Below are positions 15,582-63,121 of a DNA stretch of 64,000 nucleotides, piece after piece. The stretch covers positions 163,502 to 227,501 of the forward strand of contig JAODTK010004365.1 of assembly GCA_026419785.1 (NCBI GenBank). The letters are read 5' to 3'. The stretch is from Sclerodactyla briareus. Lineage: Eukaryota; Echinodermata; Holothuroidea; Dendrochirotida; Sclerodactylidae. Position numbers and translations under genes: made by a program. Each line of letters begins with the position of its first letter. Within the stretch, counting starts at the first letter, position 1. The notes under the pieces are model-generated. The model was not told where the DNA came from. It ran no database searches and was given only the letters and a program-made list of their open reading frames with translations.

Positions 15582-15945
15582 GCATCTAAAGTATTTTAGT
15601 CTTCTTATTCTGGGGCACTGGGGGTGGCATATTAGTAGAGTGGGAGTCGTGTCCTATCCAATCGGAGCGCCACCTGGGTTGGCGCGGAGCGGTTGCAGAA
15701 TTTTTTGTTCTGGAGTCCCCAGATGGCAGAACGGCCCTTCCCAGTGTTTAGCTGCATGGGCATCTAAAGTATTTTCTACTTATTCTGGGCGCTGGGGGGG
15801 GGGGGCTGGCATATCGAGTTCAGTAGGGTGTGGAGTAGTGTACTTATATCCACGCGGAGTCGCCCCCTTTGGATTGGCGCGGAGCGTTGCGAAAATTTTT
15901 GGTTTTGTGATCCCCCGATGGCAAAACGGCCCTTCCCAATGTTTT
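15582..15945. repeat. Tandem dimer, 178-bp unit
   Basis: GCATCTAAAGTATTTT begins at 15582 and again at 15760. It is followed in both copies by TTATTCTGG, a G-rich run, a TTGGCGCGGAGCG block and a block ending in CGGCCCTTCCCA. The dimer happens to keep an open frame across both copies, but the encoded peptide is simply duplicated and resembles nothing known. The second copy has an expanded G run. Confidence 0.85.
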
Positions 15946-36451: not shown

Positions 36452-39400
36452 GTAAGGTAGAGGAGGCCATATAATGAAGGAATTCGTTCAGGGGTGGCAT
36501 GATGATGTTTGTCTGGATGCTTGTACAGCAATTTCATGTATTATGAAACATGCCTCAAAACGTTACAAACCCACTATCAGGATATGCCATTGCTTGATAT
36601 AATGGAGGTTATATTGGGGGGAAGGTCAAACTCCAAAACCCAATTTCAATATGACGTTATTTTGACAGAGTTCAGTCAATTATTCAGAGGGAATAGGGAG
36701 AATCCCAAGTGCAAATTTTTGGAATGATATCCACAGTTGAACAACCACAGATAATGGTCCATTGTTTTATTGTAAATAACTACATGTAACATTCCAAAAA
36801 AATGCTAGTCTGTTGTTTTCTTTCACTGAGCAACTGTCAACACCAACAGGACCTACCAACCCACTACAGCGATCCTATCATAGACTATTTATTGTTTTCA
36901 AGTGAAAAGAATTTGTACATATAATACAAAAAACAAGGATATCGTGACAGGGTTGTGCAGAGATTATGACATCATTTATTATGGCATGAGCAAAAACTGA
37001 AAGGCTCTTAACTGTCCTTATCTAGCCTGAGTTAATGTTGTTATAAAATGTTGTTCTTTTCACGCTTTCACAGTTCCCATAGAAACTATTATAAAGACAT
37101 CAGAGAAGAACATGGTTTGGAGAGAAACAAAGGTTACCAGGAAAGTGAAGGAGATGCAAGAAGCTGCTATCAGACTCATAGCTCCCAACATACACCACCG
37201 CAGCAGAACCATCAGGAAACCTCAGATCAATTGAAGGTGAGAATCAGAGCTCATCTACCCACCCGCAGAATCATTCAGGATAATCCTCAGATCAATGAAG
37301 GTGAGCTCATGGTTTCCAACATACCAACCGCCCACCGAAACCATTCAGCGATAATCCCCGATTCAATGAAGGTGTTGAGACTCATGGTTTCCAAAATACC
37401 AACCGCAGAAAATTCAGGATAATCCTCAGATTCATGAAGGTGGAGATTACGGCTCCCAAATACCACGCAGAACCATTCAGGATAATCCTCGATCAGCTGA
37501 CAGGTGAAACTCACAGCTCCCAAAATACCCACCGAAAGAAACCATAAGGATAAACCTCAGATCAATGAAGGTAAGACGTACGCGCTCCATATACCCACCG
37601 CCGAACCATCAGGATTAATCCTCAGATCCAATGAGGTGATGAGACATATGGTTCCAAATACCCACCAAGAACCATTCATGATAATCCTCAGATCAATGAA
37701 GGTTAAGATTAGAGCTCCCATATATAACCACCGACCAGAAACCATTCCGGATAATCCTCCAGACCATCAACACGGTCCCCGAACTCATGGTTCCCAAAAT
37801 ATCTGCCCGAACGGTCAGGATAAACCTCAGATCAATGAAGGTGAGACCCAGAGCTCTAAAAAACAACCCGCAGCAGGACCATAGGGATATCCTCAGAAAA
37901 TGAAGGTGAGGACTCAAGGTTTACCAAAATACCCACCGAAGAACCATTCGGTTAATCATCAGATAAATGAGGGTGAGACATATGGTTCCCAAAAATACCC
38001 TCCGCAGAACCATTAAGGATAATCCTCAGATCAATGCAAAAAGCATCAGAGAAGAACATGCGTTGGAGAGAAACACCAGGTTACAGTACAGTGAAGGAGA
38101 AGATGCAAGAAGCTGCATCAGACTCATAGCTCACAAAATACCCATTGCAGACACCATCAGAATAATCCTCAGATCAATGAAGCTATCAGAGAGAACATTG
38201 GTTTGGAGAGAAACACAGTTATACCCGTTACAAGTGAGACATAGGAATACCACTGCAGAACCATACAGGTTAATCTCTCTGTTCACTTGACCATAGAATC
38301 TTCATCCAATGAGAATCTGTTGTTTCTATTTTCGTTTCTTATTTTTTCAGGCAATAAGTGAAAAAGTGCAGTCTGATTGACACACTGACAACTAGGGTGC
38401 CCACTCACCCTGGCGAAGAGCGAAAGACGTCTAAAACAGTTACTCGCAAACTCTTTGAGTGTTTGGAGGAATTGAGTAGTTGTGCGTGGATTTGTCCGAT
38501 ACCATGAAACACACTGGCTTAAGCTAGTCTCATAATATATGAGGACATTAGGCACACTCGAAAAAGGCACTTCTCATTGTCTCTCCTATTAGAGGGTCTG
38601 TGGTCTATTGTGCTCACTAGGTTCCTGTAACGATTTGTATTTTAACGATTTGCAGTGCATCTGTGTGTTGTGTGTTGTATGTATGTGACGCCCGCTTGTA
38701 AACACGATAACTGGACCCCACTGGATGAATGAAGCTCATACTTGGTATGTGTTGTTCACATGATGAGTACATGAACCTTATTGTTTGGGGGTAAGGCAGA
38801 GGGCACTAGATCATCAAAGTCTGAAAACCTTGTAAACATTGATAAGTCCAGAATGGTTGGTGATCAAGTTGAAATTTGGTGCTTGTATAGGCTTTCTTAG
38901 GAGAGTACAGGAACATTGTTGTTTGGTTGAGGTGGGGGGTATTTTGGTCACAAATTTGAATATTTGTGAAAAGTGAGATTTGGCATTTGGCTTGTAATCA
39001 CGATAACTGGACCCAATCTTGATGGATGAAGCTCATACGTGGCTTGTTGTTTACCATGATGAGTAATGAACCCTATTGTTTTGGGGTCAGGTCGAGGTAA
39101 CCGGAGGTCAAAGTCTGAAAACGGTTTAGAGGTCACTGAGGTACATAGGTTCAGTGTCTAAACCTTGTGAACAAGATAAGGTCAGAATGGGCTGGTCGAG
39201 TTGAAATTTGGTGTGTAGCTTTTTTATGGGGCGTAAGGAAACCTATTGTTTTGGTTAGGTCAGGGTGGGAATGTTGGTGGAAAATAGGAAAATTTGTGAA
39301 ATGATGAAAGTCAATCATGGCCAATTTCGGCTTTGTAAACCGATAACTCGATCCCTCCTGGTTGGATGAAGTTCAAACTGTGTATGTGTGTTCCTCATTG

Positions 39401-41181
39401 ATGAGTAATGAACCCATCGTTTTTGGGATTAAGTCAGAGGTTATCTGAGGTCCACCAGAGGTCACAATCTGAAACCCTTGTTCTACATGAGAAGCCAGAA
39501 TGGTTGGTCCGATCCCCCCCAAAAGTTGAAAGTTGGTGTATAGCTTCTTTTGTGGTAGTAAGGAACCATATTATTTTTGGTTCAGCCTTAAAATAGAATT
39601 TGATGTTTGGTCCAATTTGGCTTGTAAAACACGATTAACTCGACCCCACATGATGGATGAGCTCATACTTGGTATTTGTATTCCCCGTGTTGAGTACATT
39701 AACCCTGTTGTTCTGGGGTCAGGTCAGAGGTCATCTGACATCAAGTCTGAAAAATCTTGAAATTCAGGTGTGTAGCTTTCTTATCAAGAGTTTTTTTTCA
39801 GGAACTCATTAGTTGGTGGAAAAAATGGGAAAATTTGTCAGCGTATGTTGACTTATAATGCGGTGGTACAATCTCCCATTTGTCTGTGTGGTCTGCTATA
39901 GGTTGTCAGAAAGAGTCAAGGATCACTAAGCCGTTTGGCTTTTTCTGGTTTTAAAGTAGTTGCATTTCTTGTAAACTATTGAGTGTGGTACCGGCCAGGC
40001 CTCAAGATTAGAGAATGGGGTCACTAATGTTGCTATTGCATAATTTAGACAATTTTCAAATAACATTCCCTGAAATTGGACTCAATGGTCAATATCATGG
40101 TTCAATAGTCCTGAAAATATTGAAATTGGTGCACTGAATATCGCATTACAGGCCGGCAAACTATATTCAATCTGATATGCTTTCAGATTGCTGCTCTCAT
40201 AGTGTTAACTGGCAATTCGTCCCTTGCTACCCTCTAAGATCAGGATGGTTGAAACATCTCCCCTAAAATGAATTGATAGCGAAACCCGAACCAGTATGCT
40301 ATCGCTCGCAGGCTATGAGTCACTAGATGTCATTTTCAGCCCCAAAAAGGTCATGTTATCTGGGATAAAATAGTGCATTATATGATGTTGAGCTAAATAC
40401 AACAATTGGTGTCTAGTTAAGTTCCGTAGCCACCCCATTTAGTAAAAAGTCAGTCAGGTTCTGATCTATTGTCCTATTTTTGTTTCACAGGTGACAGTCG
40501 GTTTCTCCTGCAACAGTTTTACTTTCCTGCCAAGGAGACAGCAGGACAAAGGCAGGATGCTGGATTGCACCCCCATCCTCCTCAGGTGATGGGGGTGCCG
40601 AAACTTTGGTTGTCTAGAAAAATCCCATGTGAGCCCCCCCATTTCAATATAAGTTCCATTCAGCCTTTATCCAATATTCCTCCTTCCAGGACAACATGCG
40701 ACTTATGTGGTATTCTATTGTATTGACTGTATAGGAACTACAATTAGAAAAAAAAAAAAAACGTTTTGTAACAAAAGTAATAGGTCCAAAATGAAAACAT
40801 ATGATTGTTGTGCCGGCCGACTTTTTTAAAATTCCGCCGACTGCATGATCACCTTTTTCTCCAGAATAGAATGATTGGAGTGTTGTAACTTTGACCTGAA
40901 GTTTCTCTTGTAGTGAGGTATCAGACGATGGTATCCGATTTCAAGATCATGATGACTATGGTCTCAAATATATAAAGGCTGAATGGAACTTTAACACCAG
41001 ATACTGGGGAGCAATGAACCTAGTAGGGGAAATGTTGGGGAAGAAGACTGCCTGCGAAACAGTCTGCCTGATAATAGCTCCGGGAGGTGGGGAGGAGGGT
41101 CTGTCATGAGAGAGGTTGGGTGAGTCTAGACCGGGGTGACTCAAGTTACTCTTGTCTATTCTTATTATTCTTTTTTTTTTT

Positions 41182-41220
<39 letters not shown>

Positions 41221-44200
41221 TCTAGATATTGGAAAGTTGTCAGGGTGGCTACTCATGGAGTCACTGTAATGTCAGAAGATGTGGTCTTTTACGCCCTGGC
41301 ATACGCATATTACACCCTCCTAGTGGTTTATATGGTATCAGTGGGGTAAACTCCACAATCGTCTAATTAGATTGGGAATCGTGCTATATTGTAAAGCGGC
41401 CAATCACGTCAATTCTCAGCGTTGGCATGGTAACTGTATTAATGCCCGCAGACATATCGCCGGCTCGTTGGTGTTGTTCGGCCTGATTAAATTCGCCTGT
41501 TACATCACCGCGTGGGGCAAGTACAGCAGATGAGAGACATATAGTTGGAAAAGTGTTATAATAAGGTGCTAAATTAACGCGATTAGTGATAACTGCGTGT
41601 CTTGCGATACTACGTAGGAAACCTTTTACAGGTTAAACAAGACCGATGTTCGGGTTTATATACCCATGGATCTGAAGGTGGAGTGGAGTAGTTGTAGCCT
41701 ATAAACGTTCAATGGTTGCTGGATCGCAAGGTGAGTAATCGAGTCTTGAACAAGACTAGAAGTCAACTGGCCAGTCAGGCTGCGCGGTAGTATGTGAGAA
41801 ACAAAGCTGATTTGCATCTGCCTCACATGAGCATAAATGCAGGGTTTTTACTGGCAGAAGTCATAAAACTGTGTGTGCCTCGAATTTCACGGGCTACAGT
41901 CCGACACGAGATTGCCTGAGAGGGATTGTTTACACAAAATGAATTGACATGGACATACTGGAGCCCCTCCCATATATAACAACAGATACTGGGGAGCAAC
42001 TGACCTAGTGTGGTAACTGGATGGTGCGGAAGAAGACTGCGAAGACCATGCCTGCCCAATAATAGCTCGGGGAGGGGAGGTGGGGGGGGTTGGTCAAGAG
42101 AGAGGTTTGGATGAGGTTAAATGTAATCAGTCTACCCTCTTCCAATCTTAATATACATCCAGAGGCGGTTTACTCATGAAGTCAACGGGGCAGTCAGGTT
42201 GAGGTAGTGTAGTTATGTGAAAAAACAAACTGATTTGCCTTGCTCCACTAAGCATAAAGGCAGGGTTGGTTTCACTGGCTGAGTCACTACAAACTGTGTG
42301 CGTGTCTACACCTGTCATGACCTTTGGTAACCCTTCACATCAATCCTGATGGTGACATCCAATATGAACAAGACATGGCTTCTTCCCCCAAATGAATTGA
42401 AGGGGCCATGGGAGTTATTCAAGCGTTACCATTGACCAATGATCAGTATGGGATTTTCAGGGGTTTTATGTCATCGGTCATTTTGGGGCGCGGCAATTTC
42501 AGCATTTTGTTGAACAGTCAAGTAGTTTCTACTTCTACAGAATAGGATGGAATGATCATGAGTGGTGGTCAGTATTATCATTAAACCAATGTTTCCGGTG
42601 GTTGTTTAGGAATTTGTGTCCAGGTCATTCAGATTCAATATTAGCAATTTGTACGAAAAGTCAGCAACTTATATGCCTATGATGATGGATGATCATGATG
42701 AAAAGTTCGGTCAGTAGTATACGGGGGGGTACATTGGGGTGCACACGTAAATGAGAGGTCAAAGGGCATCCATGGGTTAATGTCACAGTCATGCCTTGAC
42801 CTACACCTCAACTAAACCTGAAACCATGCAGACCTTGGAAGTTGTTTAAATGTTCAAAGAAACTGATTGGAATCCTTCAAGCCAAATGAGGAGGAGTAAC
42901 TTTTATACCTCACATTCGACTGCCAGGAATTGGCTTTGTTTGTTGTTTTTTGTTGCCAATCATTCAAAACAGGATAGGTGGAGTTACTGATTCGCGTGAA
43001 TTGGCACTCTCAAACTGGCAACCCCTTGCTATGCGATACACTGTTATGAAGATTTTTTTCATGAACTCCGCAACTGTGGTTCTCTCTAAATAGAGGCGGT
43101 GCTTCGAAAACTACAAATGATACATTCTGCACAAAAAATGCCTCAGTTGACATAGTGAACCTGTGGCGCATTTCACGGCGATAGAAGGCAAGTCAACTAT
43201 AGTTGGCCTAGCTTGTTGCCGAGGCTACTGCCGTGTTGAATAACAATGAGCATTGAGAGGGTGTAACCATTACGTATACAAAAAGTGTTCTTCCAGGTAC
43301 TCTATACTGTCAGCTTGGCTTGCTAGTAATAATCCCCTGGTTCACAATGATTTGATTTTAGTCAAGCCTAATTATCAAGAATGACACATTTTCGTTTTTT
43401 TACATTTTGTTTCAGGGAAACTGTAGTGGAGAAGCTCTCCTACAAGTCATTAGATTACTACATCGGTACTCTTTTCAGTGGTTGTAAGTTTGACAATATG
43501 TAGTCCAGGCGGCTTGCAAATGTTGCAAGCAGTCTAACACACAGTCATACATAGCAAGTACGCGAGGCCAATCGCACAAAAAGTTCCTAATGTTCGGGGA
43601 CAATACTGTGTGTAATAATATAATTGCCAGATCAAAAATAACACACTTACAACAGTAATCATAGTGCCTTTGACAGCGATTGCATGCTGCCATGGTCTTG
43701 CAGAATGTTCCAAAAGAGGGCAGAAGCATGCTGAATGTTCTGTGCCTGTAGGTCTTTGTGGAAAACTTTGTGTGACTCAGCAGGAAAGTTGAATATAGAC
43801 CGTAAGGAGCGCCCCTGTGGCAACAAGTTTTTTCGAGTATTTAGGAAGCCATTACGGAGGATGCACTGAATAAAAGAATTGTTGAAGTTATGCGAAGTTG
43901 ACAGGACGCCAACGAAGGGTTTGCAGAGTGGGTGTTATGTGGAGAGAGTCGACTGCACATTGTGCTAACTCTGGCCTGCAGTGGTTGGGGATTCTATGTT
44001 AATTCGATCAGTCAGTGACAGGAGACCAAGATGATTTATTACTGTTGTTGAGGTGAGATAACAAGGGTTGCGTAACCAACACAACAACAGTTAATGTTGA
44101 ATTTTCAGGAATACAATGGAATTTGTCATTACTAGGGAGTTGGAGTGTGGATAGGGAATGTTGAAGTAAGTGTGCCAATACGAGCCTCTGTCAAACATTA

Positions 44201-47200
44201 TATCCTTGCCTTCTATTTAAGACAGGGCTGAGTCACGGTCCCCTAGTAGTCTTAACTCCAAGCAGTGTGTTCTCAGGGAAGAAGTAGCACAGTGGTTGCC
44301 TCTCACTTAATGTGGGGCAAACATCGGTGTCAGAGTGGGGAGGTCAGTTGGTCAGTAACATTCAACTTGAATGCTCCCATGACATTGATGTCTTACCAAC
44401 TTGATTCACTCTTTTGCTCAGCAGTTCCAATGTTACAGCCATTGATAGGTACGGGAGCATATGTTGTGGCATGAAGATGTGGAGAAGAAACTCCTAAGCT
44501 ACTCCTCAGCCTTAGGTTATATCCTCACTAGATCACCTCATGCATGCTGTTAATCCAATAGCCAGAAAAGCTAACATAGAATGCAAGATGTGAAGACACG
44601 CCTAATGAGTTGAATCAGCCTGATTTTTAAGCAAAACAACCAGGAATAGGCATTTATTATTTTTAAGAGCAAGACAGGACGCGATGCATAAAAGTTAATA
44701 ATTCCTGTGGCTCCTCACTCACTTACTGTGCTCATAACATCTAGAAGGCACCAGACCAAGGTGAACATAGCCCACACCCCCTCCTCCCTTCCCCACTCCT
44801 CACGAAGGGACGATTTGTCTCACTTTCAAGTGTTCATGCTGCCTTCTAGTAGAGAGAGCAGGCCTCATGAATACTTATGTTAGGAAAGTATTACAAGAAA
44901 GTGTATTTACACATGTGGGCAGTAGAAAGTTGTAAAACATTTTCACTTGTTGTGCGTTTGTGAATCAGACGTGCATGTTGCAGTTTACTATTTCCCTCTA
45001 ACAGCTTGGACCTGACATGGGCGTGGAGCTCGGCCGTTAAACAACGATCTATGCCTGACTTATTCAACTAAAGGTCGACAAAATCTTGCTTATTGAAGTC
45101 CGCAACGTTACTGGAGGGACATCTAGGAATAACACTAACACCTTCAAGCTATCAGAACTAGGTATGTTTACTCATCTGATGGCTACGCCGATCATTATAT
45201 GCGTAAGCATTCAGACTAACACCTTCAAACCTTGGTTGAGCGTTATCTTCCACAAGAGACTGAGCTAAGTATAACTCAGTGACATTATCACTTTCAGGTA
45301 CCATTGATATTAACACCTTGAAGCCATCAGACCTAGGTGAGGTACTCATGATAGTGTGACCTATTAGACCAGGTACTAACAGAGGTAACCCCATTGAAGC
45401 CAGCAGTATTAGAGCTATCAGATGACGTTGCGGTACCAACAATAAACCATTGAAGCTAGCAGTATTACCTAGCTATAAGATGAGGCACCAACCAATAACC
45501 CATTAAGCTAGCAGTATACCTAGCTATAAGAATGACCTGGTACAACAAGAACCATTGAGCTAGCGTATTACATAGCCTATCGATGATGGTACCCAAAACT
45601 AACCCATGAGATAGCAGGTTTTACCTAGCTAATCAGATGAGGGCGGTACAACAATAAGCCATTGAAACTAGAGTTGTTAACTGCCATATAAGATGAGGTA
45701 CCGACGGTACCAACAATTAAACATTGAAGCTAGCGTATTACCTAGCTAGTCAGATGAAAGTACCAACAATAAACCATTGAAGCTAGCAGTGTTACCTATC
45801 TATCAGATGAGGTACCAACAATAAGCCATTGAAACTAGCAGTGTACCTAGCTGTAAGATGAGGCGTACACACAATAAGCCATTGCAACTAGCAGTGTGAC
45901 CTAGATATAAGATGACGGTACAAACAATAAGCCATTGAAGCTCAGTGTTACTAGCTGTCAGATGAGGGTTCCAACAATAAGCCATGAAGCTAGGCAGTGT
46001 ACCTCGCTATAAGATGAGTACCAACAATAACCCATTGAAGCTAGCAGTGTTACCTAGCTGTAAGATGAGGTACCAACAATAAGCCATGGGAAACGAGCGT
46101 GTTACAAGCTATCAGATGAGATACCAACAATAAGCCACGAAGCTAGCAGTTGACCTAGCTATCAGAGGAAGGTACCAACATAAGCAGTGAAGCTGCAGTA
46201 TTACCTAGCTATCCAGAGGAGGTACCAACAATAAGCCATTGAAGCTTGCAGTATTACCTAGCTATAAGATGAGGTACCAACATAACTAATTGGTACTAGA
46301 ATGTGTGTTCATTTCTACCAGGGGCCCATATCATGTCAACTACATCAGCTTTCTTTATGACCTGGTTCATGCAATTGAGGAAAGAACTATTTTTTTGTAT
46401 TATGTTTCAGAGAACTTGCCAAAACTTATATCAACTTTAGTGACGAGACAGATTGCAATTCCTGTAGAGTTCTGTCGATAGCCGTCTCTGAGCTGGAATC
46501 AAAAAAGACAGTCATCACACCATACCAGTCAAGGACCAGGGCCCCAAGAAACAAAGCAACCCACCCCATCTCTGAGTTCAACCAAAGTAAGTGACAGTGC
46601 AATTCTTTCCATCCCTAGTAATTGCCATGAATCCTTGCTGCTCTCCTATCACTGACATGATACATTAATGAAGAGAGGTTAAAGGACAACATGCAGGATG
46701 AATTATAAAGAGGCTGTGATATTAGCTTGAAAAGTGATGCGTCAGTCCAAACCCGATGTTCGTACAAATTTCTGTACGGAGTTACGTCCTTGAAGTTGTG
46801 CATGGTAGTGTGCAAGATGAAAAGCATCCCATCATAAAGGATGTCATACTTGACACAACCCTGCAAAAGAATTCTTTGATTTCTATTGAACTTCACACAT
46901 TATTTTCACTTCAAAAATCTTCAGTCTATGGAGAGCGATGCTGAAGTGGTTGGTTGTTGATGGTTACTTTGGTGAGAGAGAGAAAACAGACAACAGAACT
47001 TCTGCTAAATTTGGACTCATTCAACAAAATGAAACAATGAAATACTTAACATAGGTCCCAGCCGGGTTGTCCAAGTAGTGGGACGTAAGAGTTATGCCGC
47101 AATTTGGATTCTGCCCAACTACTCTGCATAATGGACCAAACTTCTCTGCTAAAGGCCAGAGTACTCCACATAGGAACATTGTATACAGCGTCGGAAAAAC

Positions 47201-50200: not shown

Positions 50201-53200
50201 CATTGCATTGTTGAACACGAACAGTGTGTGGTATTGATAGCTAACCAATCGCTGGCGTTTAGCAATGCATTTGGGAACCACTTCAATTGTAGGCACTTTA
50301 GCACCCGGAAAATCCAAAGTAGCACCCGAACTGGATTAAGGGTGTGCGATTTTTTTTTAAAAAAAAGCACCCGAACTGAAAAAAAAATGTCTCCTACCCT
50401 GATTGTATAGTATCCATAGCCGGCAGTGTCCACTTGACAGTGACACCCTTATCCTTTGCCTGGCTGCATCCCATCCTAACACCAGATCCTGGCACCATGA
50501 TGATATTATAGGGGGGGGGGTTATATGGGACACAAGACATCCACCACTCATCATTGATGCCAATATGTAGTAGTAGTTACCAGGAAAACCTCACCAAAAA
50601 AGACTGGACGGCACCCAATCAAACGTCCCAGCATCCCCGATTGCCAGGAATAATATAGAGAGGGGAGGGGAAGGGTGGAGAGAAAACAGACCGCCATAGT
50701 CATCCCTGTGCAATAATAGCAGTCACTAGCAGATCCTCATCCACGCCTGACTGCACCCCATCCTAAATGGGAGCATCCCTGTTCGCTGTCCAGGACCGTA
50801 CTGTGAAGGGGAGAGAGTGTTGGGGGGGGGGGGAAAGACAATCAGCCCTCATCGCTGATGCTATTCGCGCGTCACCCGCAGACACTCTTCCCATGCTGGC
50901 TGCCCCCCCCCTTAACATGCACCATCAACTTGTGAATGCAGTGCCTATGGTTAGGGCCCTGGTGTTCAAAAGGCCTTGTAAATCTTGCTCATCTCCTCAA
51001 CCCAAGCGCCAATTGGATCCAATGAGCCACACCTGTGAGGTGTGGTTTGACATTCGATCATGTTAATCTCAAATCTGCACCCTCACATGTTGGGGGATTT
51101 AGCTGTGCGCAGGGGTGGGTGACCAGTGGGTGGTACGGTGGTCGGGTGGTGGTGCCTTTCAGGCACTGCATACAGGGCTAGTGGGGAACTTGGCAGCATT
51201 GTAATCTTATTCCTCCTTACACCAGATGAGGTAGTTGTTGTGGGGGGGCACAAGCAATCACAGTCCATCTCGGATGCCAATTGAACTAAGACGCAGAACC
51301 CCACTTTTTTTTTTTATCCCAACTCCCTGACATCAGGTGGTGTACTTTCATTTATTATGGGAAGTAAGTAGTGTGTATGTTGTTCGATAATGGGCCACCG
51401 TTGCCTGGACCTCTATCACCTCTGCAGTATTTAGTGGCTGGGGTTGTTTCAATGTGTTCTTTCATTCAGCAAGCTTGTGGTTCCCATGGAATTTTTGTCA
51501 CATTTCACAGAAACGTATACTCCCCTTTGTTAACATAATTAGTAATCAGTCCTCATGAATTTGAAAATGTTCACTGCTTATTAGGCTGTTTCTGTTACTG
51601 CTAATACCAAAATTGGAAAGGAAACACATGGCATGACTATAGTTGTTTGCATGGTGACTGTCTGGAAGGAACCCACTGATCGCGCACCAGCAGACCCAGG
51701 GGGCGATAGTAATAGTAAATACCTTCATTGGTATCGTCGTCTTTTTTCTTCTCAGATACTCGGAGAATTGCCTTCCTTTGTGGAAACCTGGTGCAGATAG
51801 CATGTCAAAAAATTGTGAGTAAAAATAACGTCCTTTCATGGTTTGTGCTGCATACATTGCGTGTTTGGCCTTTGCATTTTGGTTTGTGCTGCCAGACTTT
51901 ATTGATCTTCTCTTCTTTTAACTTCTGAGAACACATCTACTACCTGATTGTGTTAGCGAGGTAAAGAGCAGATCAGTTTTGCGATATTTCTTGGATAGGA
52001 CTCAGGGGAGTCCCCAGAAATTCTATGTAGCCACTTGTGGGAGTGTGTGGTTTGTGTGTGAAAAACTTCTGCTGGCTTAGTCAAAAAAAACACTATAACT
52101 CAAGACCCACTTGGATGAATCAGGGCTATACCCAGTATGTGGGTTCTCCAAATTGAATACATTACCAACGCCCTCAGGACCATGCAATCATAGCTTTCTG
52201 GCCTTCAGGTTTTGTTTGGATCTTCTGACTTCATTTTACTTTATTCATCAGAGAGTGGTATGCCTGCCAACTATCGAAACCTTGTCAGTGAGATAGAGCG
52301 CTGGTTACATGGCTCGACAATTCGCTGGCTTTCGATGCCTGGTAGGGTTGCTTAACGATGAAGAGGGGGTGTAAACCTTAACCCCGCCTTTGAATGACAT
52401 AGCCTCCCTCCCATCCATCCGAGCAATGCATCAGGTAGTCTACAAGGTGGAAGTGGGGGGGGGGGCTCTACGCGTCCTATGCCTGCTGCTTGGAGGGAAA
52501 CAAAGGCAGAAGAGGAAATCATATCCCTTTACTACTTGAGGTATTAGTGTTCTCATAACACCCACAATTAATGGAACTATGATAATTTCATTAAGAGCGG
52601 ATGTCTGCCGTGGTTGGTAGGTGCTGACTGTTAACTTTGGTGAGAGAAAGTCGGCAGAAACTCTGCGGAAGTTGAGTTGGATTTAACTGATGTTCATTAA
52701 CTATGTAACATTCCCTATCTGCATTGTTTCACTGTGATCCTCATGCATAAAATCTGTCGGCATAATGGACCAAACTTTGGAAGGCCAATAACTCCACATA
52801 GGACCATTATTGAAATGGGTTTTGTACCTATAGGTTATGGTTTTTCCAATTCTCCACAATGTATCTCCATTATATCTAGACTATCAGTTCTTCTTTCAGA
52901 TGCCTGCTGAATTATGTCTTGATGGATGCTGTTGTAAAATCTATATGTTGGCATGCATTTGTACTTTTTTGTTGTACACATTCCTCAAAGTGTCTGATTT
53001 TTTACAAACTTTGAACTTCAGCTGGAACATGGTGAACCACATGGCAGTGTCCATGCTCACACGGAAAACAGTTGTCCAGTACTAAGGCCATTCAATCAGC
53101 CCCATTTCTGACTATATTATTGTACTTAATTGTGGGGGGGGATATTTGCCAGTTTTTGTTTTGAACAGAATAGTATCCCCAGCCCTTTCTAGCCTCTGCC

Positions 53201-56200: not shown

Positions 56201-59200
56201 TTTCCGTTGGTTTTGGGATTATCGGTATGTTTGCATTAAGTCCTACGATTGTCTGTGGCAAGTGGGCCGAATCCTGGAGTTCACTGATCGCCTTTTTGGA
56301 GGAGAGGTGTAAAAATGGTGTCGGTCCGGGGATGCAGGTTAGGTTGGTTACATCCATGCCTAGGTTAAGGTGAGGATTGCACTGTTCATCCAAAATCAAT
56401 ACAGCCAGGTCATTGCTCCCACATTACATTTACAGCCAGGGTTCCTTGCTCCAACATCAATACAGAAGGGGTCTTGACGAGATTACTTGGCTTCTCAACC
56501 AAAGCTGATGAAAAACCAATCAAATGAAACTTCAGTAGCAAGATTACACAAGAATGTGCCATAAATCTCGCTGAGAATACCTACTTGGGCTCTATTGCAG
56601 TGATTTTCCTGCTGTTGCTTTGACATGAAATGTAGGCATATGATTTGCTCCATTCCAGAAACCTATGTGCAACTCAAATTATAAGGGATCCTCACAAGGC
56701 GGCAGAGGTTACAAGTCTGAGCCAAGGATTCTCCATTAGGTAAAGCATGGAGGTGAAAGTAAAGGGCTCCATATTGGCCAAGCTTATGGAGCGTCAATGG
56801 AAAGAAACTGACATGGGTGGAGATGGACCAAGTATGACCCCGGGGTACTCCAATAGAGTAAAGATTGTGACAAGTTGACCAGGGGATACTCCAATAGAGA
56901 GATCCTGGCAGGTGTGGGTCTCAATATAGCAGCTATGGGGTTCAATGAAGGATGCCTGACAAGCGGGTGTTAGATGGTGACATAGTACGAGCCCAGGGGG
57001 TAAATTCAATAGGGGAAACCCTGGAGGCAAGGTGAGTATCTCATTTGGTAGCTATGGGGTTCAATGAAGGCTCTGACAAGGGTGTGAGATGTGACCAAGT
57101 ATGACCCAGGGTACCTAATAGGGTAAACTCTAGAGGCGAGGCAAGGACCTCAAAATTGTCAGCAGTGGGTAATCTAGAGGACTGATGGGGTGGATCAATG
57201 TGCAACACGTACGACCAAACCTTTGAAATGACTCATCCGTGTTCCAGTGTTTAGGGGGGCACACAAATATCAAGCCTGCATATCAGGGTGTTCTCCTGCT
57301 TCCTCCTCCACGATGATGAATCCAAAGATGTACCAAAGGGTTTGACAGCTTCACAAGTTGCTCCTTGATTTCAATGAAGGTTTTGGCTTGCCAGAGCTAT
57401 CGAGAGTTTCCTGCGGAGCAAGACAAAATCGTTTGCAGATCAGACGTTCTCTGAAGAAGGTGTCTACTCGAGGTAGGATCTGTTCTTGTTGAGCACATTG
57501 AATAAATAACGACAAACGCGAGCTCCCAAGGCTGTTCTCCGCCCTCCTCCCATTTGTTTATTGTGTTACCCCAGCTTAAATGTTAGTGTTCCCTTATCTT
57601 TAAATGTTCCCATTAATCCAACTCACAAGGAAATTACAATCAATGATTCTTTTGACAGGGGAAACATTTCTTCTTGGTATCCAGTTGAATCAAACCAAAG
57701 ATTTTTGAGAAGGTACCCTGTGCCTTTACTGGGTGGTCGCCAATCAGTATGGTGTTTTTACCATATGGTGTGATATTACCACCACCTCATCACACTGATT
57801 TCCGCTGAATATGTCATGGCCTGTCACATCAACTGACAAAAAGTGAAGTATCCAGTATCACATTTTGCCAGGTCTGAATTGTCACATTCCTGCTCGGCAG
57901 TACCGCAAAAGGTTGACATTGTTTTTGCTAATTGTTTGATGGCATAGCCTTGCCCCCATCAGCGAGTATATATTAATGAAGGTACCAAAAGGCCAGGCAT
58001 GCAGATTTCTCCAATGGCCCCCGACCTAATACACATTGAAGAATAGCCAGTCTCTTTGCCATTGCAGCAGTCATCAGACACATACTAGAGTCAGAGAATA
58101 AGGCAATGAGCTAACACATCTGTTAAGGAGAGAATCACTGATATAAAGGTGATAGTTGTCCTTGATAATCATGTCTTTCTTTCCCCTTTTAAGCTCATAT
58201 TCAGGCATCTCTAGAGTCAGAGATACAAGCATGAGGTGATTAACACCTGTTGAGGTAGATTGAGGATAGAAAGTGATAGGTGGCCATTCATGATCATGTG
58301 TCTTTTATACCTTCCAGCATATCATCAGACATCAACTGGCGTCAAGAACAATATCAAGGAGGTGATACCGAGCTACTTTGACTTCTCGCTGAACATCAAA
58401 ATGAAATTCAACCTTAACGCCTACCAGAGGTTTAACAAGATTGTTACCACCGAAGATAAGTAAAAGCTGGTGGTTGGGAGCTGTCGGTGGTATTTGGTGC
58501 TGCAATATTGGTGAGGTAGGTTGCAGTATAAAGTCCTCACATTCTCTCTGAAATTCCTGAAAGAATACAATCTTCTTGCATGGGCCGTTTTCAGAAATAG
58601 TTAATATCCCTTGTTGGTTTAGGACTTTTGCAGACTTCATCATAGAGGCAAAACTATTGCCTTTGGCTCAAAGTTTACAAGCCTCCACAATAACATCATC
58701 AATTGGCCTTGAATCCAAAAGACCTCAGCACTCTCGTATTCACCCTTGAAGACAACTCATGAATTCCAAAAACCAAAGGAGACTATAATTATTGAATATG
58801 CCTGTAACATTACCCCTACCAAACTACTACCCATAAATAGGCAGACCTAAAGAGCTGTAGAATTCTCAGAAAATATTATTTAAACTTAATGTGTTTCAAT
58901 AAAAAAAATATAGAAATTTTTTTATATATTTTAGTGTTTTTGTGTTTTTATAATTATATTATTAATGTTTTCCTGTTTTTTTGTGGGTGATTTTTGTTTT
59001 TTCTCCTCTCATTCAGTTCAAGAGTTTCGGCATATCGTACATTCCAACATCGTGGACTCCAACATGTTTTGGGAGGTTCATGGTTCTCATATTGGGTCCA
59101 TTTTGAGCGGAACATCCAGAGAACTATAGTTCGTCCCTGATGTATTGCATATTCCTAATACTGTCTCAATGTGATAATAACAGATGCTACCACTTATACA

Positions 59201-62200
59201 GTTACAGCTTACTCAAACTATTAACCTTTGTTACCCTCTGATCATGCTTACAACTTGACAATCAATTGTTTGTGCTAAGGGGTGGAATGGTCGATTCTGA
59301 CTGTTTAGAAATGCTCCGTCAAAATATTTGTAGGATCTAATTCCTCCTATTTCCATTTTGCAACATGAGCTCAAATTTGCACGAGGCTGATGAGGATATC
59401 CCTCCTGGTTTTGAAAATCCTCCACATTGAGCATTCCTCAGCTGAACATGTACACAATATTAGTTTTTGTCCCACGACATTATGTTTGTGCGTTAGGGTG
59501 AGATATCAGGTCAGTTCTGACTGTTTAAAAAAATCCCTGCCACAAAATATTTGTAGGGGGGAAAATTCCCTCCCAGTTTTCATTCCAATCCAACAGCTCA
59601 GCTCCCAATTGCAACGTTGCTGATATAAAATCCCCCCTTGGTTCTGGAAATCAACCCTCTTGTAAGAACAAAAAGGAAAGAGTTCCGCTCCCATAGTGAT
59701 TCCTTAGCACTGACACTGTACATCATATCAGTTTGTCACTTTGTGTCCCCTGTAGCATTCCAATAGCATCATCCAGACGCATTGGTCTTTGCTCGTTTGT
59801 TCATTGGATGTCCTGTGGTGGTTTTGTAGATGTGACCTGATTGGTAAATCCTGCAAGAGGTGACTGAAGGGAGGGGGCATCTCACTCCTGATGAACAAAC
59901 AATTATAGAAAACGACCTTTTGCATAAGTCTTTATAGCATTTTCCTTGAGATGTTTCACATGGGGGCTCTGCCAAAATGGTTTTCATGTCTGCAATTAGT
60001 GTCTGGGCAAAGGGAGATAGCAGGAGAGATGCCTTGCGTAACAGCAGTGTTGAGAAATCTGTGAGGTGTAAAAGGTTGTTTAACTGCTAGTCTTGCTAAT
60101 TGTGAATATTGTACAAATAGAGTGAAGAATGTTGAAAATGGCTCCTTAATCACATGTCAATGAGTCCTTCAGTATTCAGAATCTTGAACCTGGTAATTCC
60201 ACAACCATTGGACGTAGATTAGTACCTATGTTGCGAAATTATTTACAGATTGGCCTGCAACAAACTGTTTCTTGATGAGGCAACATCAGTGGAAAGCGAA
60301 CAGACTGACCCTGCTCATCAAACTATCATCAACATCATCAATGTTGAAATCCTACCCGTAATTTTAACCCGACACCTTGAGATAGGCCCTAATTAGGAAG
60401 ATGATGTGGTTGGAATATTAGTCAGGCCTGAAGAAATCGAATCAGGTTTATTCGCCCAGGAGAGAGAAAAGCAGAACAATTTTGAGGGCAAATAGCCAAA
60501 CTTACTCATGTGATTTATGATGGGGAAATCACTCATGTTTTTTGACAGACTTCTCCATAGATATTTAATTATATTTTTCGTCACGTGAGTGGATTTTTCC
60601 TGAATAGCATCATAGGATATGTTCCTGTCTTGTCAAGGCTGTTTTCATAGTAGGATGAACTGGGCATTCCATGTTTGCAGAATTGGCCCAATAATGGAAG
60701 AACCGAAGAACCCTGTGAACCCATGTAAGAGTATGTGCGCAATATGCTTACAATTCCAACTATCCCAAAGAGTGTCCCTCCTAATCCAAATGGTATTCCT
60801 ACCATGCTATGTTTTAGTTAACTATTGGGGAATTTGTTGACCGTTTCATCGCCAATTTTTGGTTTAACCAACCATGAAACCTTTATAAAAAGGAGAAACA
60901 CCTCCATTTCGTATATACATAGTTTGCTTCAAAATTGAATAGCATCTCTGTCAGTGTGCATGTTAACTGGCAACTGAGTGTGTTTAGTAAGTTTTCCCAG
61001 TCTTGTTATATGGTCCTGTATATATTTTTCTTTGGTACAGGAGAATGTAGTTGCCTGAAACAACAATCATCTTCCTCATGTTTGCTGATAGGAAGGGCGA
61101 GCTGCCAATCTAAAATCTCCTGACCGAGAGAAGAGGAACAGCAACAGTAATAGACCCAGGCTACCCTCCCTACAAAACCGCCGGGAACTGTGAATGTTCT
61201 GGCAGGAACATTATCGACACAGAGAGAAGGATTGTACAGCACTGAAAAGGTAACAATTAGTTGGTGCTGTAGTAATATAGACCAGCTACCTATATCAAAC
61301 CTCAAGGACTGTTAATGTTCTGGTAGAAACAGTTATCTACATTGAGAGGGGAACTGTACAGCACTAGAAAAGGTAACAATGAGATTTAGTGGCTGAGTAT
61401 ATAGACCAGTCTACTTATACGAACCTCGAGGAACTGTCAATGTTCTGTGAGGAACATTATCTACCCAGAGCGAAGGACTGTACGTACTAAAAAAGGTAAC
61501 AATTATGTGGTTGGCTGTAGTAATGTGACAGGCTACCTATACAAAACCGCAAGGACACTGTTTTATGTTCTGGCAGGAACATTATCTACATGTAGGTGAG
61601 ACGGTCAGCACTAGAAAGGTTACACTGGGTGGTGACTGTAGCCCTTAGACCAGGCTACCTACTACAGTAACCTCGGGAACTGTTTATGTTCTGGTAGGAC
61701 ATATCTACACAGAAGAAGAACTGTACAGCACTAAAAAGGTAACATTGTGATGGCTGTATTATATAGACCCGGTTGCTGCTACAAAAACCTCATGGAACTG
61801 TTAATTTCTGGTAGGAACACTTACCTACAAGAGAGAAGGATTGTACAGAATTAGAATAAAAGGTAACAATTATGTGATGGCGTAGTAATTATACCAGGTT
61901 GCCTTCTACAAAACCTCAGGGAAATGTTTATGTTCTGGCAGAACATTATCATCCACAATTGAGATATAACCTTTACGCCTAGAAAGGTAACAATTAGATA
62001 GTGGCTGTAGTAATATAGACCAGGCTACCTCATACAGAACCTCAAGGAACTGTTAATGTTCTGGGGAAGGAACATTACTACATGAGAGGACAGGCGACAA
62101 TGTACTATCAGCACTTAGAAAAGGTAAACACTTAGGTGTTTGTGGCTATAGTACTATAGATTAGGTTGCCTGCTACAATACTCAGGTAAAATGTTTAATG

Positions 62201-63121
62201 TTCTGGCAGGAACATTATCTACATTGAGAGAAGGACTGTACTACAGCACTAGAAAAGGTAACAATTAGGTGATGGCTGTAGTAATATAGACCAGGTTGCT
62301 CTACCAAAACCTCAGGGAACTGTTAATGTTTGGTAGGAAATTACTCATACACAGAGAGAAGGACTGTACAGGCACTAGGAAAAGGTAACAATTAGTTGCG
62401 TGGCTGTAGTAATATAGGACCAGGTTGCCTGTTACAAAACCTCAGGGAACTGTTAATGTTCTGCAGGAACTTATCCTACACAGATAGAAGGACTGTACGG
62501 CACTAGAAAAGGTACCAATTGATTGTGCTGTTTATATAAGACCATGCTACCTGCTACAGAACCTCAGGAAACTGTAATTTTCTGGTAGCAACATTATTTA
62601 CAACTATGTGGGCAAACTGCCACTCGTGTATTACAACATTCCGAGGGTATATATTTGAATGGCTTGATACTATACTTGCCATTTCACAGACTAGGCTACC
62701 TGCATCAAGCCGGTGACCTGTTAATTAAGGGCATGCAATACTCATGTAATGGTGAAATTGGTGGCCTGACGGTTGGGCGCAAGACCTAAAACCTAAATCC
62801 TTTTCAGTAATTTGTATTACATTAAATAAGTTCTGACTCATGTCACATACTGCACTGCTCGGTTAGCCTGGTGCATTCATTTCACATTCCAGCTGTTCTC
62901 TGATAGCTTTCCTTAGCCGTTCGCATGTCAAGCATGAGATGATCCTTAAATACAACTTTCATACCTACTCATCTTTACTTTCAATTGGATTCTCCTGCAG
63001 GTTCCTGTATACGGTTTCAGAAGTGGAGGGAGACAGTTCCCTGCTGACGAACTCTGACATGAGTCGCCTGTATCGGTCCTCTCCATTACCTGAAGTGGAT
63101 AACCTTTACCAGAGGACCTGA
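36258..63121 (+). CDS. TRPC4AP: TRPC4AP (TRUSS) gene, about 18 exons, N-terminus missing
   Basis: In vertebrates TRPC4AP is a cytosolic helical-repeat scaffold. It acts as a substrate receptor of DDB1-CUL4 ubiquitin ligases, including recognition of some C-terminal degrons. It also binds TNFR1 complexes and the TRPC4 channel. Eighteen candidate exons on the + strand follow the human protein order recalled from memory. The strongest are 53606-53788 (NQNCDCSPEVALNVQFLRLV), 57380-57472 (FWLARAIESFLR), 58318-58459 (MKFNLNAYQRFNK), 46411-46586 (LSIAVSELE) and the last, 63001-63121, which ends in TGA. Exons have AG acceptors and mostly GT donors. Many contain one frameshift, probably sequencing noise because alternate frames remain conserved. 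The first part of the protein and the exon before the last are not found. Introns hold two large repeats, a hAT-like insertion and five junction-linked tandem arrays. Confidence 0.93.
37074..37236 (+). CDS. TRPC4AP: TRPC4AP candidate exon b
   Basis: The acceptor is TTTCACAG and the donor is GTGAGA. The open frame ends EAAIRLIAPNIHHRSRTIRK followed by PQIN. This resembles the human stretch around EILMRPTISIRGQKLKISDE, the order expected after exon a. The first 30 codons, including SEKNMVWRETKV, do not match well. The end of this exon is the seed of the 66-bp array that follows. Confidence 0.5.
37165..38280. repeat. 66-bp minisatellite built from an exon end and its splice donor
   Basis: About 13 units repeat at 65-68 bases. 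The core CTCAGATCAATGAAGGTGAG appears at the true exon-b boundary (37222) and again near 37283, 37554, 37688, 37825, 37891 and 38024, with diverged units between. Each unit also carries the AGCTCCCAAAATACC and CAGAACCATTCAGGA words found inside exon b. Most units keep a GT following AAG, so a potential 5' splice site recurs. At 38041-38185 and 38186-38270 longer stretches of exon b, starting from TCAGAGAAGAACATG, are copied as well, so duplication occurred at two scales. Confidence 0.85.
38690..39960. repeat. Tandem array 2, same family as array 1
   Basis: Four units start near 38696, 38991, 39333 and 39621 with TTGTAAACACGATAACT-like blocks. They carry the same internal words as the array at 26.2-29.6 kb and end in the same terminal block (GTTGTCAGAAAGAGTC near 39902). 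The array lies inside an intron of TRPC4AP. The shared right end argues that the array moves or duplicates as one block. Confidence 0.85.
40491..40585 (+). CDS. TRPC4AP: TRPC4AP candidate exon c
   Basis: Bounded by a good TTTGTTTCACAG acceptor and a CAG/GTGATG donor, with one open frame ending GRMLDCTPILLR. This can be aligned with human MSKDCLSILYN. The preceding residues (VTVGFSCNSFTFLPRR) have no counterpart, so the assignment rests mainly on position and splice sites. Confidence 0.4.
41000..42310. repeat. Duplicated intronic block
   Basis: AGATACTGGGGAGCAA with a following GAAGAAGACTGC block occurs at about 41000-41130 and 41987-42115. A second block (CAGTCAGG followed by ACAAAGCTGATTTGC and GCAGGGTT) occurs at about 41773-41880 and 42188-42305. 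The copies are partial and the order is rearranged, suggesting successive duplications. Confidence 0.65.
41170..41217. repeat. Poly-T tract
   Basis: About 45 bases of nearly pure T, interrupted once by G, inside an intron. It could be the tail of a minus-strand retroposon, but no adjoining element was recognised. Confidence 0.8.
43416..43483 (+). CDS. TRPC4AP: TRPC4AP candidate exon d
   Basis: Strong acceptor (TTTTGTTTCAG) and a consensus donor (GTAAGT). One frame reads ETVVEKLSYKSLDYYIGTLF, which lines up with human EGVTKRLAEKNDFVIFLFTL. A second frame is also open, so the frame choice rests on this weak similarity and on gene order. Confidence 0.55.
45074..45161 (+). CDS. TRPC4AP: TRPC4AP candidate exon e
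   Basis: It reads KSATLLEGHLGI and, after a one-base shift, NTNTFKLSEL, matching human TATLIEDILGVKKEMIRLDE. The donor is GTATGT. The acceptor is poor, so the start could be at 45074 or 45099. The exon end is the seed of the 52-bp array downstream. Confidence 0.65.
45125..46290. repeat. 52-bp minisatellite seeded at an exon end and donor
   Basis: The exon-e end ACACCTTCAAGCTATCAG followed by AACTAG/GTATGT is copied as AACACCTTGAAGCCATCAG with CCTAG/GTGAGG at 45313-45345 and partly at 45221. It then degenerates into at least 16 units of about 52 bases (45395-46285) with the core CCATTGAAGCTAGCAGT, TACCTAGCTATCAGATGAGG and TACCAACAATAA. Unit starts fall regularly (45777, 45829, 45883, 45935, 45986, 46035, 46087, 46137, 46188, 46240). 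It lies wholly in one TRPC4AP intron. Confidence 0.9.
46411..46586 (+). CDS. TRPC4AP: TRPC4AP exon f
   Basis: Acceptor TATGTTTCAG and donor GTAAGT. The first half reads ENLPKLISTLV...FCR in one frame, and after a shift the second half reads VLSIAVSELESKK...ISEFNQ. Together these match human PNLSSLVSNF...FCRILAVTISEMD...AAEINQ. The frame change lies near 46470. Confidence 0.88.
46940..47177. repeat. Intronic dispersed repeat, copy 1
   Basis: Shares TTGGTGAGAG, CATAATGGACCAAACTT and AACTCCACATAGGA-like blocks with 52607-52812. It is cut at 47177 by the hAT-like insertion. Confidence 0.65.
47186..50401. mobile_element. hAT-like DNA transposon, non-autonomous, 3.2 kb
   Basis: Flanked by a perfect 8-bp direct repeat ATTGTATA (47178-47185 and 50402-50409). 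The left end starts CAGCGTCGGA and the right end, on the opposite strand, starts CAGGGTAGGA. Eight of ten positions agree, with the CAG start and 8-bp duplication typical of the hAT superfamily. Just inside both ends lie GCACCCGAA-containing blocks (47222-47280 and 50301-50358) that also match in direct orientation over about 55 bases. I recognised no transposase among the internal frames, so a non-autonomous or decayed element is likely. It interrupts an older dispersed repeat in a TRPC4AP intron, so it is younger than that repeat. Confidence 0.85.
49461..49523. repeat. Short inverted repeat inside the transposon
   Basis: GCTCCTGGTCC near 49462 is mirrored by GGACCAGGAGC near 49510, giving an 11-pair perfect stem with a loop of about 37 bases. 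A third half-copy (CAGCTCCTGG) lies in the loop. Confidence 0.7.
50450..51290. repeat. Degenerate intronic repeat, about 300-400-bp spacing
   Basis: CTGCATCCCATCCTAA or CTGCACCCCATCCTAA occurs at 50463 and 50749. G runs followed by a TCAT or CATC...GATGC block occur near 50510, 50822 and 51242. Copies are weakly alike. Confidence 0.35.
51756..51814 (+). CDS. TRPC4AP: TRPC4AP exon g
   Basis: Acceptor TTCTTCTCAG and donor GTGAGT. It reads ILGELPSFVETWCR, then a TAG, then HVKK, matching human LLSIPGFVERLCKLATRKV. The in-frame TAG may be a base error. Confidence 0.75.
52252..52341 (+). CDS. TRPC4AP: TRPC4AP exon h
   Basis: It reads SGMPANYRNLVSEIERW and, after a shift, WLDNSLAFDA. This matches human FLQELEEWYTWLDNALVLDA. 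Acceptor TTCATCAG and donor GTAGGG. Confidence 0.85.
52607..52812. repeat. Intronic dispersed repeat, copy 2
   Basis: Counterpart of 46940-47177. Together they show the repeat existed before the hAT-like element landed in copy 1. Confidence 0.65.
52900..52989 (+). CDS. TRPC4AP: TRPC4AP candidate exon i
   Basis: Good acceptor (CTTCTTTCAG) and a possible donor GTGTCT. KIYMLACICTFLL can be aligned with human KLEVLYVLCVLLM, and the position in the gene is right. The upstream residues match poorly and need a frame change. Confidence 0.35.
53180..53560. repeat. Pyrimidine-rich low-complexity intron tract
   Basis: Dense CCTCC, CTTCC and poly-C words just upstream of exon j. The open frames across it are compositional artefacts. 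Confidence 0.75.
53606..53788 (+). CDS. TRPC4AP: TRPC4AP exon j (diagnostic exon)
   Basis: Acceptor CCTCTTCAG and donor GTAAGT. It reads SKLMPGLNDIFDRVLWN and then, after one extra G in the GGG near 53700, YNQNCDCSPEVALNVQFLRL and VHTFCDHH. Human TRPC4AP has FKLIPGLNNLFDKLIW and HNQNCDCSP...LKIQFLRLLQSFSDHH. This is the strongest match in the window. Confidence 0.97.
54850..54955 (+). CDS. TRPC4AP: TRPC4AP exon k
   Basis: The split codon from exon j continues with NKY, an apparent TAG, then VLLTKKERIQSLEKISAQA. Human has NKYLLLNNQELNELSAISLKA. Donor GTAGGT. The TAG is probably an indel artefact. Confidence 0.85.
56659..56815 (+). CDS. TRPC4AP: TRPC4AP candidate exon l
   Basis: The clear part is KGSILAKLMERQWKETDM at the end, matching human KRGLLTRLLQVMKKEPAE. 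The acceptor CATTCCAG is good and the donor is set at 56816 by the following repeat. The first two thirds match poorly and contain a stop in each frame. Confidence 0.6.
56816..57240. repeat. 115-bp tandem array starting at a splice donor
   Basis: Units share GACCAAGTATGACCC, GGGTACTCCAATAG, GGAGGCAAGGTGAG and GCTATGGGGTTCAATGAAGG. Restarts fall near 56826, 56877 (shortened), 56978 and 57093. The first unit begins at the end of exon l. A copy of the GGTGAG-type donor word recurs in each unit. Confidence 0.8.
57380..57472 (+). CDS. TRPC4AP: TRPC4AP exon m
   Basis: One uninterrupted frame reads FWLARAIESFLRSKTKSFAD followed by QTFSEEGVYS, matching human FWQARAVESFLRGTTSYADQ and the residues after it. 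Donor GTAGGA. The acceptor AAG is weak and shares the CAATGAAGG word with the array just upstream. Confidence 0.9.
58045..58330. repeat. Tandem duplication of an acceptor region, about 132-bp unit
   Basis: TTGCCATTGCAG followed by CAGTCATCAGACACAT (58057-58085) foreshadows the true acceptor and exon start, CCTTCCAG followed by CATATCATCAGACAT (58311-58331). Between them TCTAGAGTCAGAGA, ACACCTGTT or ACATCTGTT, GATAAAGGTGATAG-like and GATCATGTGTCTTT-like blocks occur twice (about 58086-58195 and 58205-58310). The 3' splice-site side has thus been copied in tandem two to three times. Confidence 0.75.
58318..58459 (+). CDS. TRPC4AP: TRPC4AP exon n
   Basis: It reads VIPSYFDFSLNIKMKFNLNA and then YQRFNKIVTTEDK, matching human VLQSYFDLLGELMKFNVDAF and KRFNKYINTDAK. 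Acceptor ATACCTTCCAG and donor GTAAAA. The first ten codons need another frame. Confidence 0.95.
59017..59128 (+). CDS. TRPC4AP: TRPC4AP exon o
   Basis: Acceptor CTCATTCAG. It reads QEFRHIVHSNIVDSNMF and then, in another frame, RFMVLILGPF, matching human FLKQINSSLVDSNML and VTLSLDRF. The end is approximate. Confidence 0.8.
59290..59660. repeat. Tandem duplication, about 221-bp offset
   Basis: TTCTGACTGTTTA occurs near 59294 and 59515. Each is followed by AAAATATTTGTAGG, a CAGCTC or GAGCTCA block, GCTGAT and CCTGGTTTTG or CTTGGTTCTG. Confidence 0.7.
60249..60357 (+). CDS. TRPC4AP: TRPC4AP exon p
   Basis: Acceptor TTATTTACAG and donor GTAATT. It reads CNKLFLDEATSVESEQTD in one frame, LLIKL in another and INIINVEILP at the end, matching human CRLLAYISQVPTQ...LFRLINIIHVQTLTQ. 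Confidence 0.75.
61041..61146 (+). CDS. TRPC4AP: TRPC4AP exon q
   Basis: Acceptor TTTGGTACAG. It reads ENVV, then TTIIFLMFADRKGELPI and NLL after frame changes, matching human ENVSCLNTSLVILMLARRKE and RLPLYLRLL. The end at 61146 with donor GTAATA is inferred from the repeat that follows. Confidence 0.82.
61120..62640. repeat. About 122-bp tandem array containing an exon end and donor
   Basis: About 12 units share GTAATATAGACCAGGCTACC, AACCTCAGGGAACTGTTAATG, TTCTGGTAGGAACATTATC, CAGAGAGAAGGACTGTACAG and CACTAGAAAAGGTAACA. The TTCTGG word falls near 61197, 61318, 61442, 61567, 61688, 62057, 62201, 62459 and 62580. The first unit starts at the exon-q end, where AACAGTAATAGACCCAGG is the same as the unit's TAGTAATATAGACCAGG. 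The unit's GAGAGAAGG resembles the exon's GAGAGAAGAGG. Confidence 0.9.
63001..63121 (+). CDS. TRPC4AP: TRPC4AP last exon with stop
   Basis: Acceptor ATTCTCCTGCAG. It reads SCIRFQKWRETVP in one frame and, after a shift near 63045, LLTNSDMSRLYRSSPLPEVD followed by NLYQRT and TGA. Human ends SCISFSYWKETVS, ILLNPD and a short acidic tail, so the C-terminal length is similar. The last 20 residues are not conserved. Confidence 0.9.

Follow-up and report, generated by a model that had tools for sequence, protein, structure and literature searches.

In the TRPC4AP gene of the sea cucumber Sclerodactyla briareus, stretches that span exon-intron junctions are copied in tandem into the adjoining introns. 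Such copies are present at five of the 32 tested junctions of this gene, on the donor as well as on the acceptor side, and further genes of the assembly show them too. The observation of repeats on exon-intron junctions, which had been made from inspection of the letters alone (the sequence-only reading), is confirmed, and its proposal that repeats are seeded there is supported. The window analysed is a stretch of 64,000 nucleotides and corresponds to positions 163,502–227,501 of contig C2425 (319-Mb assembly, 3171 contigs).

Junction copies in TRPC4AP

TRPC4AP is located on the + strand, from 37 to 63 kb of the window (PF12463, E 3.2e-16), and 17 of its exons were placed. Homology, combined with a visible GT or AG, defined most exon edges; those of the exons 40493–40585, 43415–43483, 56660–56739 and 59018–59110 were placed largely by eye. 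A human sequence and the best database relative, P0001, served as tblastn queries. All eight matches of P0001 in the assembly fall at this single locus, with exon identities of up to 96%. A composite of the exons found 13 database proteins among 7997 scored candidates, and PF12463 is present in each of the 13. In the order listed, these relatives are P0001, echinoids, an ophiuroid, hemichordates, an asteroid, Apostichopus, lamprey and hagfish; amphioxus is absent from the 13 hits among these 7997 candidates. In an unrooted maximum-likelihood tree, TRPC4AP of the window, P0001 and Apostichopus are split from the other eight sequences with 100%. The dynein heavy chain of the assembly likewise groups with Apostichopus in an unrooted maximum-likelihood tree (split from the other eight 100%), with a composite that was trimmed using Apostichopus alignments and with raw identities that are close (Apostichopus 73.7%, Asterias 72.5%). 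The best named hits are from echinoderms for TRPC4AP as well as for dynein. Taken by themselves, these results support an echinoderm host well and make a holothurian very likely; amphioxus, which the literature had first suggested as the host, was rejected on the same grounds.

Frameshifts are present inside conserved TRPC4AP exons when the window is compared with P0001, and the sequence is noisy there. This noise is uneven over the assembly: frameshifts or stops are present in exons of TRPC4AP and CCT, and many dynein exons are clean. COX1 and the clathrin heavy chain gave no match in the assembly, which may therefore be incomplete. A Pfam scan of 37000–46598 (+ strand, three frames) showed no domain, Rfam and tRNA scans of the whole window gave nothing, and neither did a comparison of one window piece with a plasmid collection.

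For each donor, a query made up of the final 30 bases of the exon and 12 bases of the intron was compared with the next 1.8 kb, and the best local match was set against 200 shuffles; the acceptor test is the mirror image. The donor at 52539 is uncertain, and no donor was located for the exon at 59018, so that 15 donors were tested. Four of these are positive, with z-scores of 12.3 (37236), 8.5 (45161), 4.8 (56739) and 16.0 (61249), and no shuffle equalled any of them. The remaining 11 of 15 donors are flat (z < 1). Among the 17 acceptors, one is positive (58319, z 6.8, copies upstream) and the other 16 are flat (z ≤ 1.3).

Tandem Repeats Finder (TRF), suggested as a check in the sequence-only reading, found four arrays with units of at least 50 bp in the window, all within the TRPC4AP span: 37181–38036 (about 66/131 bp), 45432–46282 (52 bp), 56931–57141 (119 bp, 1.9 copies) and 61170–62602 (122 bp, 11.4 copies). 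That reading had placed all four at 5' splice sites. Comparison of the junctions with the TRF consensus upholds this for the arrays at 37 and 61 kb (0/500 shuffles as good) and leaves it weak at 45 kb (9/500) and at 56 kb (4/500).

The arrays 37181–38036 (A37) and 61170–62602 (A61) are unambiguously junction-spanning. All TRPC4AP features described here are on the + strand. The exon 37074–37236 (P0001 residues 23–75; tblastn, edges read in sequence) ends at a donor GTGAGA at 37237, and the A37 unit of about 66 bp consists of about 48 nt of exon end and about 18 nt of intron (TRF, junction test). At its far end, A37 is followed by one more exon-body copy (38040–38182; genome DNA search), with 83% identity to 37093–37236. 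The exon 61041–61249 (P0001 residues 658–719; tblastn) has the donor GTAACA at 61250. Here the unit of about 122 bp comprises about 95 nt of exon end and about 27 nt of intron, and ten decoys are listed (TRF, junction test). Accordingly, parts of P0001 residues 685–726 were matched repeatedly along A61 by tblastn. For A37 and A61, only local matches were found when 1 kb of each was compared with the assembly (one candidate scored each, commonest words skipped), and no dispersed relatives were among them.

The tie of the other two donor-side arrays to their junctions is weak. The exon 45074–45161 (P0001 residues 178–200; tblastn, edges by eye) has the donor GTATGT at 45162. It is followed by a single clear junction copy with exon end and GT (45311–45349, junction test) and by the 52-bp TRF array at 45432–46282, which has a weak similarity to the junction. 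A unit of exon end plus GT donor, claimed for three arrays, is clear at 37 and 61 kb; at 45 kb, the strong junction copy is this single one. The exon 56660–56739 (GILTR.. / SEP.., by eye against P0001) has the donor GTAAAG at 56740. The array A56 (56829–57141; TRF, junction test) has a unit of about 115 bp with the exon end.

On the acceptor side, the duplication at 58045–58330 does copy an acceptor, as had been read from the sequence. Two copies (58050–58110 and 58172–58237; together 58050–58237, junction test) are located upstream of the exon 58319–58459 (P0001 residues 539–576; tblastn, edges by eye). The predicted runs of decoy splice sites are present as well: among the copies listed, the GT is kept in 10/10 at 61 kb, 9/13 at 37 kb, 2/4 at 45 kb and 2/4 at 56 kb.

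Junction copies in other genes

Further exons were chosen by Pfam match alone (Cpn60_TCP1 and dynein AAA_6), and 11 matches correspond to 10 distinct exons. Places with kinase (39) and myosin (8) exons were also listed and are in none of the counts. Of the four CCT matches, three are below Pfam's own cut-off, and in-frame stops are present in three of the four. Finer names for the Cpn60_TCP1 exons (CCT7-like etc.) are our presumption.

Donor-side copies are present at three of the 10 exons. A CCT-like exon on contig C2009 ends with GCATTAGAG followed by GTAACC, and its copy is found about 247 bp further on. On C219, the donor of a CCT-like exon (ACATCATTG followed by GTGAGT) heads an array of 110 bp x 4.9 (z 11.4), in which the GT is kept in all three decoys listed. 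This donor is located 129 bases beyond the Pfam match, after a G-rich run. In a dynein-like gene on C884 (locus L008), the donor GATAATCTCAAG followed by GTAAGC has one junction copy (z 14.5), and the unit is about 169 bp. On the reverse strand, roughly the first 20 bases of the unit (ATTCATGTTTTGAG) recur after the second junction copy (by eye), either as a partial third copy or as a short repeat that mediated the duplication. The junction test was negative for the other seven of the 10 exons; for locus L003, the highest z over 14 trial positions is 3.3.

A 50-kb stretch with a dynein beta-chain gene was tested at 33 acceptors and 34 donors from an automatic call. A strong positive (z 23.2) is seen at one acceptor, which belongs to an array of 149 bp x 2.8. 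At this array, residues 1731–1769 of the Apostichopus dynein are matched by four successive tandem segments, the last of which is the real exon. The array adjoins an open exon without frameshift; the decoy frames contain stops. In total, 1/67 tested junctions is truly positive. The donor 28129 was rejected as a positive: it was mis-called, the duplication is mid-intronic, and no copy with a score above 32 is present around the true donor. At mid-intron control points, one of 75 is positive, and this one lies within the junction array. Furthermore, three duplications of the dynein gene have no visible contact to a junction. Junction copies are common enough in the assembly to merit a genome-wide count.

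Several other repeats were noted. A diverged direct repeat of about 296 bp occupies 38694–39738 of a TRPC4AP intron; words like GGATGGATGAAGCTCATAC recur on another contig, in L026 (by eye), so this repeat looks dispersed. Positions 2817–3000 of L026 and 1–314 of L014 (C1900) hold a minisatellite with a 34-bp unit in about 14 copies, most of which contain ACAGGTAC; no exon was recognised there. At 15582–15944 of the window, a 178-bp tandem duplication (76%) lies in an open frame of 168 aa with the repeated word PRWQNGPSQC. TRF reports GTCTCGAGACCGGTCTC at 26606–26639, repeated with 2.1 copies and palindromic in look. Additional tandem duplications are present at 28963–29365, 31933–32923 and 41759–42300 of the window, at 211–787 of the joined dynein stretch, in L012 and in L016–L018.

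Origin of the arrays

The arrays are probably minisatellites of the type called mirages in amphioxus, i.e. local junction-spanning duplications that have expanded in the intron, are tolerated there and are partly homogenised with the exon. The initial event would be a local tandem duplication with a first unit that straddles a splice junction (exon end and donor, or acceptor and exon start). This unit would then multiply inside the intron. By analogy with amphioxus, the site contiguous with the exon would remain the one used, and array-bearing junctions are presumably spliced normally. The decoy copies may be tolerated because this site stays usable. The extra copies would drift and would be gained or lost via unequal exchange or slippage, the putative motor of the process. 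Sometimes, the exon may convert part of the adjacent copies.

The divergence of the copies bears on these steps. Along the dynein array, the copies become less similar to the true exon with distance (identity 0.89, 0.77 and 0.63). Most of the nearest copy is near-identical to the exon, and changes at its end are shared with the next decoy (alignment by eye). This pattern suggests partial conversion or unequal exchange, which would leave such a copy. In A61, the identities range from 0.51 to 0.75 and show no order with distance. The missing gradient weighs against the mirage-type explanation, as do the single positive among 67 dynein junctions and the three duplications away from junctions.

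A stronger role of the junctions themselves is a tentative alternative, which we regard as rather doubtful: transcription, R-loops, DNA breaks or splicing-coupled repair would make junctions hotspots of duplication. The underlying null model places seeds evenly along each gene, with wholly exonic seeds excluded. A seed of the observed unit would then span a junction with a chance of 4–13% in TRPC4AP and, at 149 bp, of 19% in the dynein gene. When the five short-unit arrays of TRPC4AP are all counted as junction-spanning, as the sensitive test indicates, P is 3.5e-6, and with the dynein gene added (6/7 short-unit arrays) P is 6e-6. Donor-side copies at 3/10 Pfam-picked exons point in the same direction, and so does the scarcity of mid-intron positives in the dynein gene (1/75, inside the junction array).

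The sensitive test, however, was run at junctions and not evenly along the genes. By BLAST self-comparison alone, 3/5 short-period arrays (P = 0.0078) and 3/9 arrays of any period (P = 0.29) are spanning; both methods together give 6/11 arrays of any unit (P = 0.007). The sequence-only reading had judged chance placement unlikely, which holds if the five arrays count and fails for the 3/9 found by BLAST alone. Moreover, of 150 points sampled at random in the window (arrays included), 21 exceed z 4; nine of these are inside TRPC4AP arrays, nine in repeats at 31–33 and 39 kb and three elsewhere. The yield of 1/67 in the dynein gene also argues against targeting. An enrichment at junctions is likely for short units, and its extent varies with search effort.

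Array donors share no motif. GGTGAG is present in two of the seven array-bearing donors (37236 and L002); the others read GTATGT, GTAAAG, GTAACA, GTAACC and GTAAGC. A sequence-specific cause at GGTGAG-like words, proposed earlier, is therefore not supported, as 5/7 donors read otherwise and acceptors are affected too. Weak donors are no explanation either, since the five scored array donors are not weaker than 42 others (one-sided p 0.56). A unit length in multiples of three was also discarded (true of 66 and 123, untrue of 52 and 149). With the same reserve, it is conceivable that some deuterostome genomes have true hotspots of tandem duplication at their junctions, that a sizeable share of sea cucumber donors (3/10 Pfam-picked exons here) carries decoy arrays, and that mirages, far from being peculiar to amphioxus, represent a process shared by echinoderms and chordates and a steady feedstock for new introns.

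Selection for the decoys is improbable. The arrays would be kept for their additional splice sites, which would tune splicing, slow it down or offer alternative exon ends, and conservation within the units provides some indications of this kind. In A61, where the GT is kept in all ten copies, the decoy junction window is conserved to 95%, and 1.7% of the unit windows are as high. In A37 the value is 93%, with 5.5% of windows as high (three GT-less end copies excluded). Junction windows are hence among the best-conserved parts of both units. Pure drift would not predict this, and it counts against the mirage-type explanation. Exonic decoy columns are slightly more conserved than intronic ones in the three arrays compared (0.80 versus 0.76, 0.80 versus 0.72 and 0.85 versus 0.79). 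On the other hand, the junction does not stand out in the dynein array, where 32% of windows reach its level and the decoy frames contain stops, and the GT is present in just 2/4 copies at both 45 and 56 kb.

Two further origins are weaker still. Mobile introner elements are near-identical copies dispersed over many genes. The arrays do not match this pattern: their units hold each gene's own local exon sequence, and only local matches were found for A37 and A61. Ordinary minisatellites placed by chance would agree with the one null that yields P 0.29 and with the presence of arrays such as the 34-bp one without visible exon; the local exon content of the units makes this origin, like the mobile one, highly unlikely. 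An assembly artefact or a decaying pseudogene, to which the TRPC4AP frameshifts and the in-frame stops of the CCT matches could point, is the least credible origin, as the copies differ by 11–50% from the true one, the dynein array stands beside an open exon without frameshift, and TRPC4AP occupies one place in the assembly (8/8 matches) with exon identities of up to 96%.

Comparison with known systems

The mirage minisatellites of amphioxus are tandem copies across exon-intron boundaries on the donor and acceptor side, with AG/GT signals in many but not all copies and a unit length between about 10 and 160 bp (PMC3087553, PMC3902484). They are described in Adh3, the globins BflGb6 and BflGb9, PGBD5 and troponin C; papers on retinol dehydrogenase and presenilin are cited there for similar structures, and Canestro 2002 is cited as the original description (PMC3087553, PMC3902484). 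Copies are homogenised with the cluster edges spared, and length is unstable, also somatically (PMC3087553, PMC3902484). From RT-PCR, the authors suggest regular splicing (PMC3087553).

The sea cucumber arrays share several of these traits. Their units span the exon-intron boundary, 5' and 3' boundaries are affected, and splice signals are kept in many, not all, copies. Units are 52–149 bp, and that of L008 (about 169 bp) is slightly above the 160 bp of amphioxus. With respect to homogenisation, the dynein array suggests partial conversion and A61 has no gradient. Unlike in amphioxus, the host is an echinoderm and not a cephalochordate, and five junctions of one gene are affected.

Related duplications are known from other systems. 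Internal tandem repeats in human segmental duplications are of minisatellite size, are in part located at exon-intron boundaries and can create novel introns (PMC2812944). Half of them are in coding exons of recent duplicates (PMC2812944), whereas the repeats here are intronic and in a single-place gene. In potato RdRp, intron gain is linked to tandem genomic duplication (PMC4974935). That case also involves tandem duplication within a gene (PMC4974935); here, however, the copies lie within existing introns, and no new intron is seen.

Among the matches listed, in a search to which subscription journals were mostly closed, there is neither an echinoderm report of mirage-like arrays nor a further report of mirages. 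As far as the literature searched goes, the sea cucumber arrays are of a known kind in a new host group, and structures named mirages, which in the literature found concern amphioxus, are now extended to echinoderms. If frequent across holothurian genes, they would amount to natural sets of decoy splice sites that are graded and lie in one place, with which site choice by the spliceosome could be studied directly and the gain of introns through tandem duplication be observed under way.
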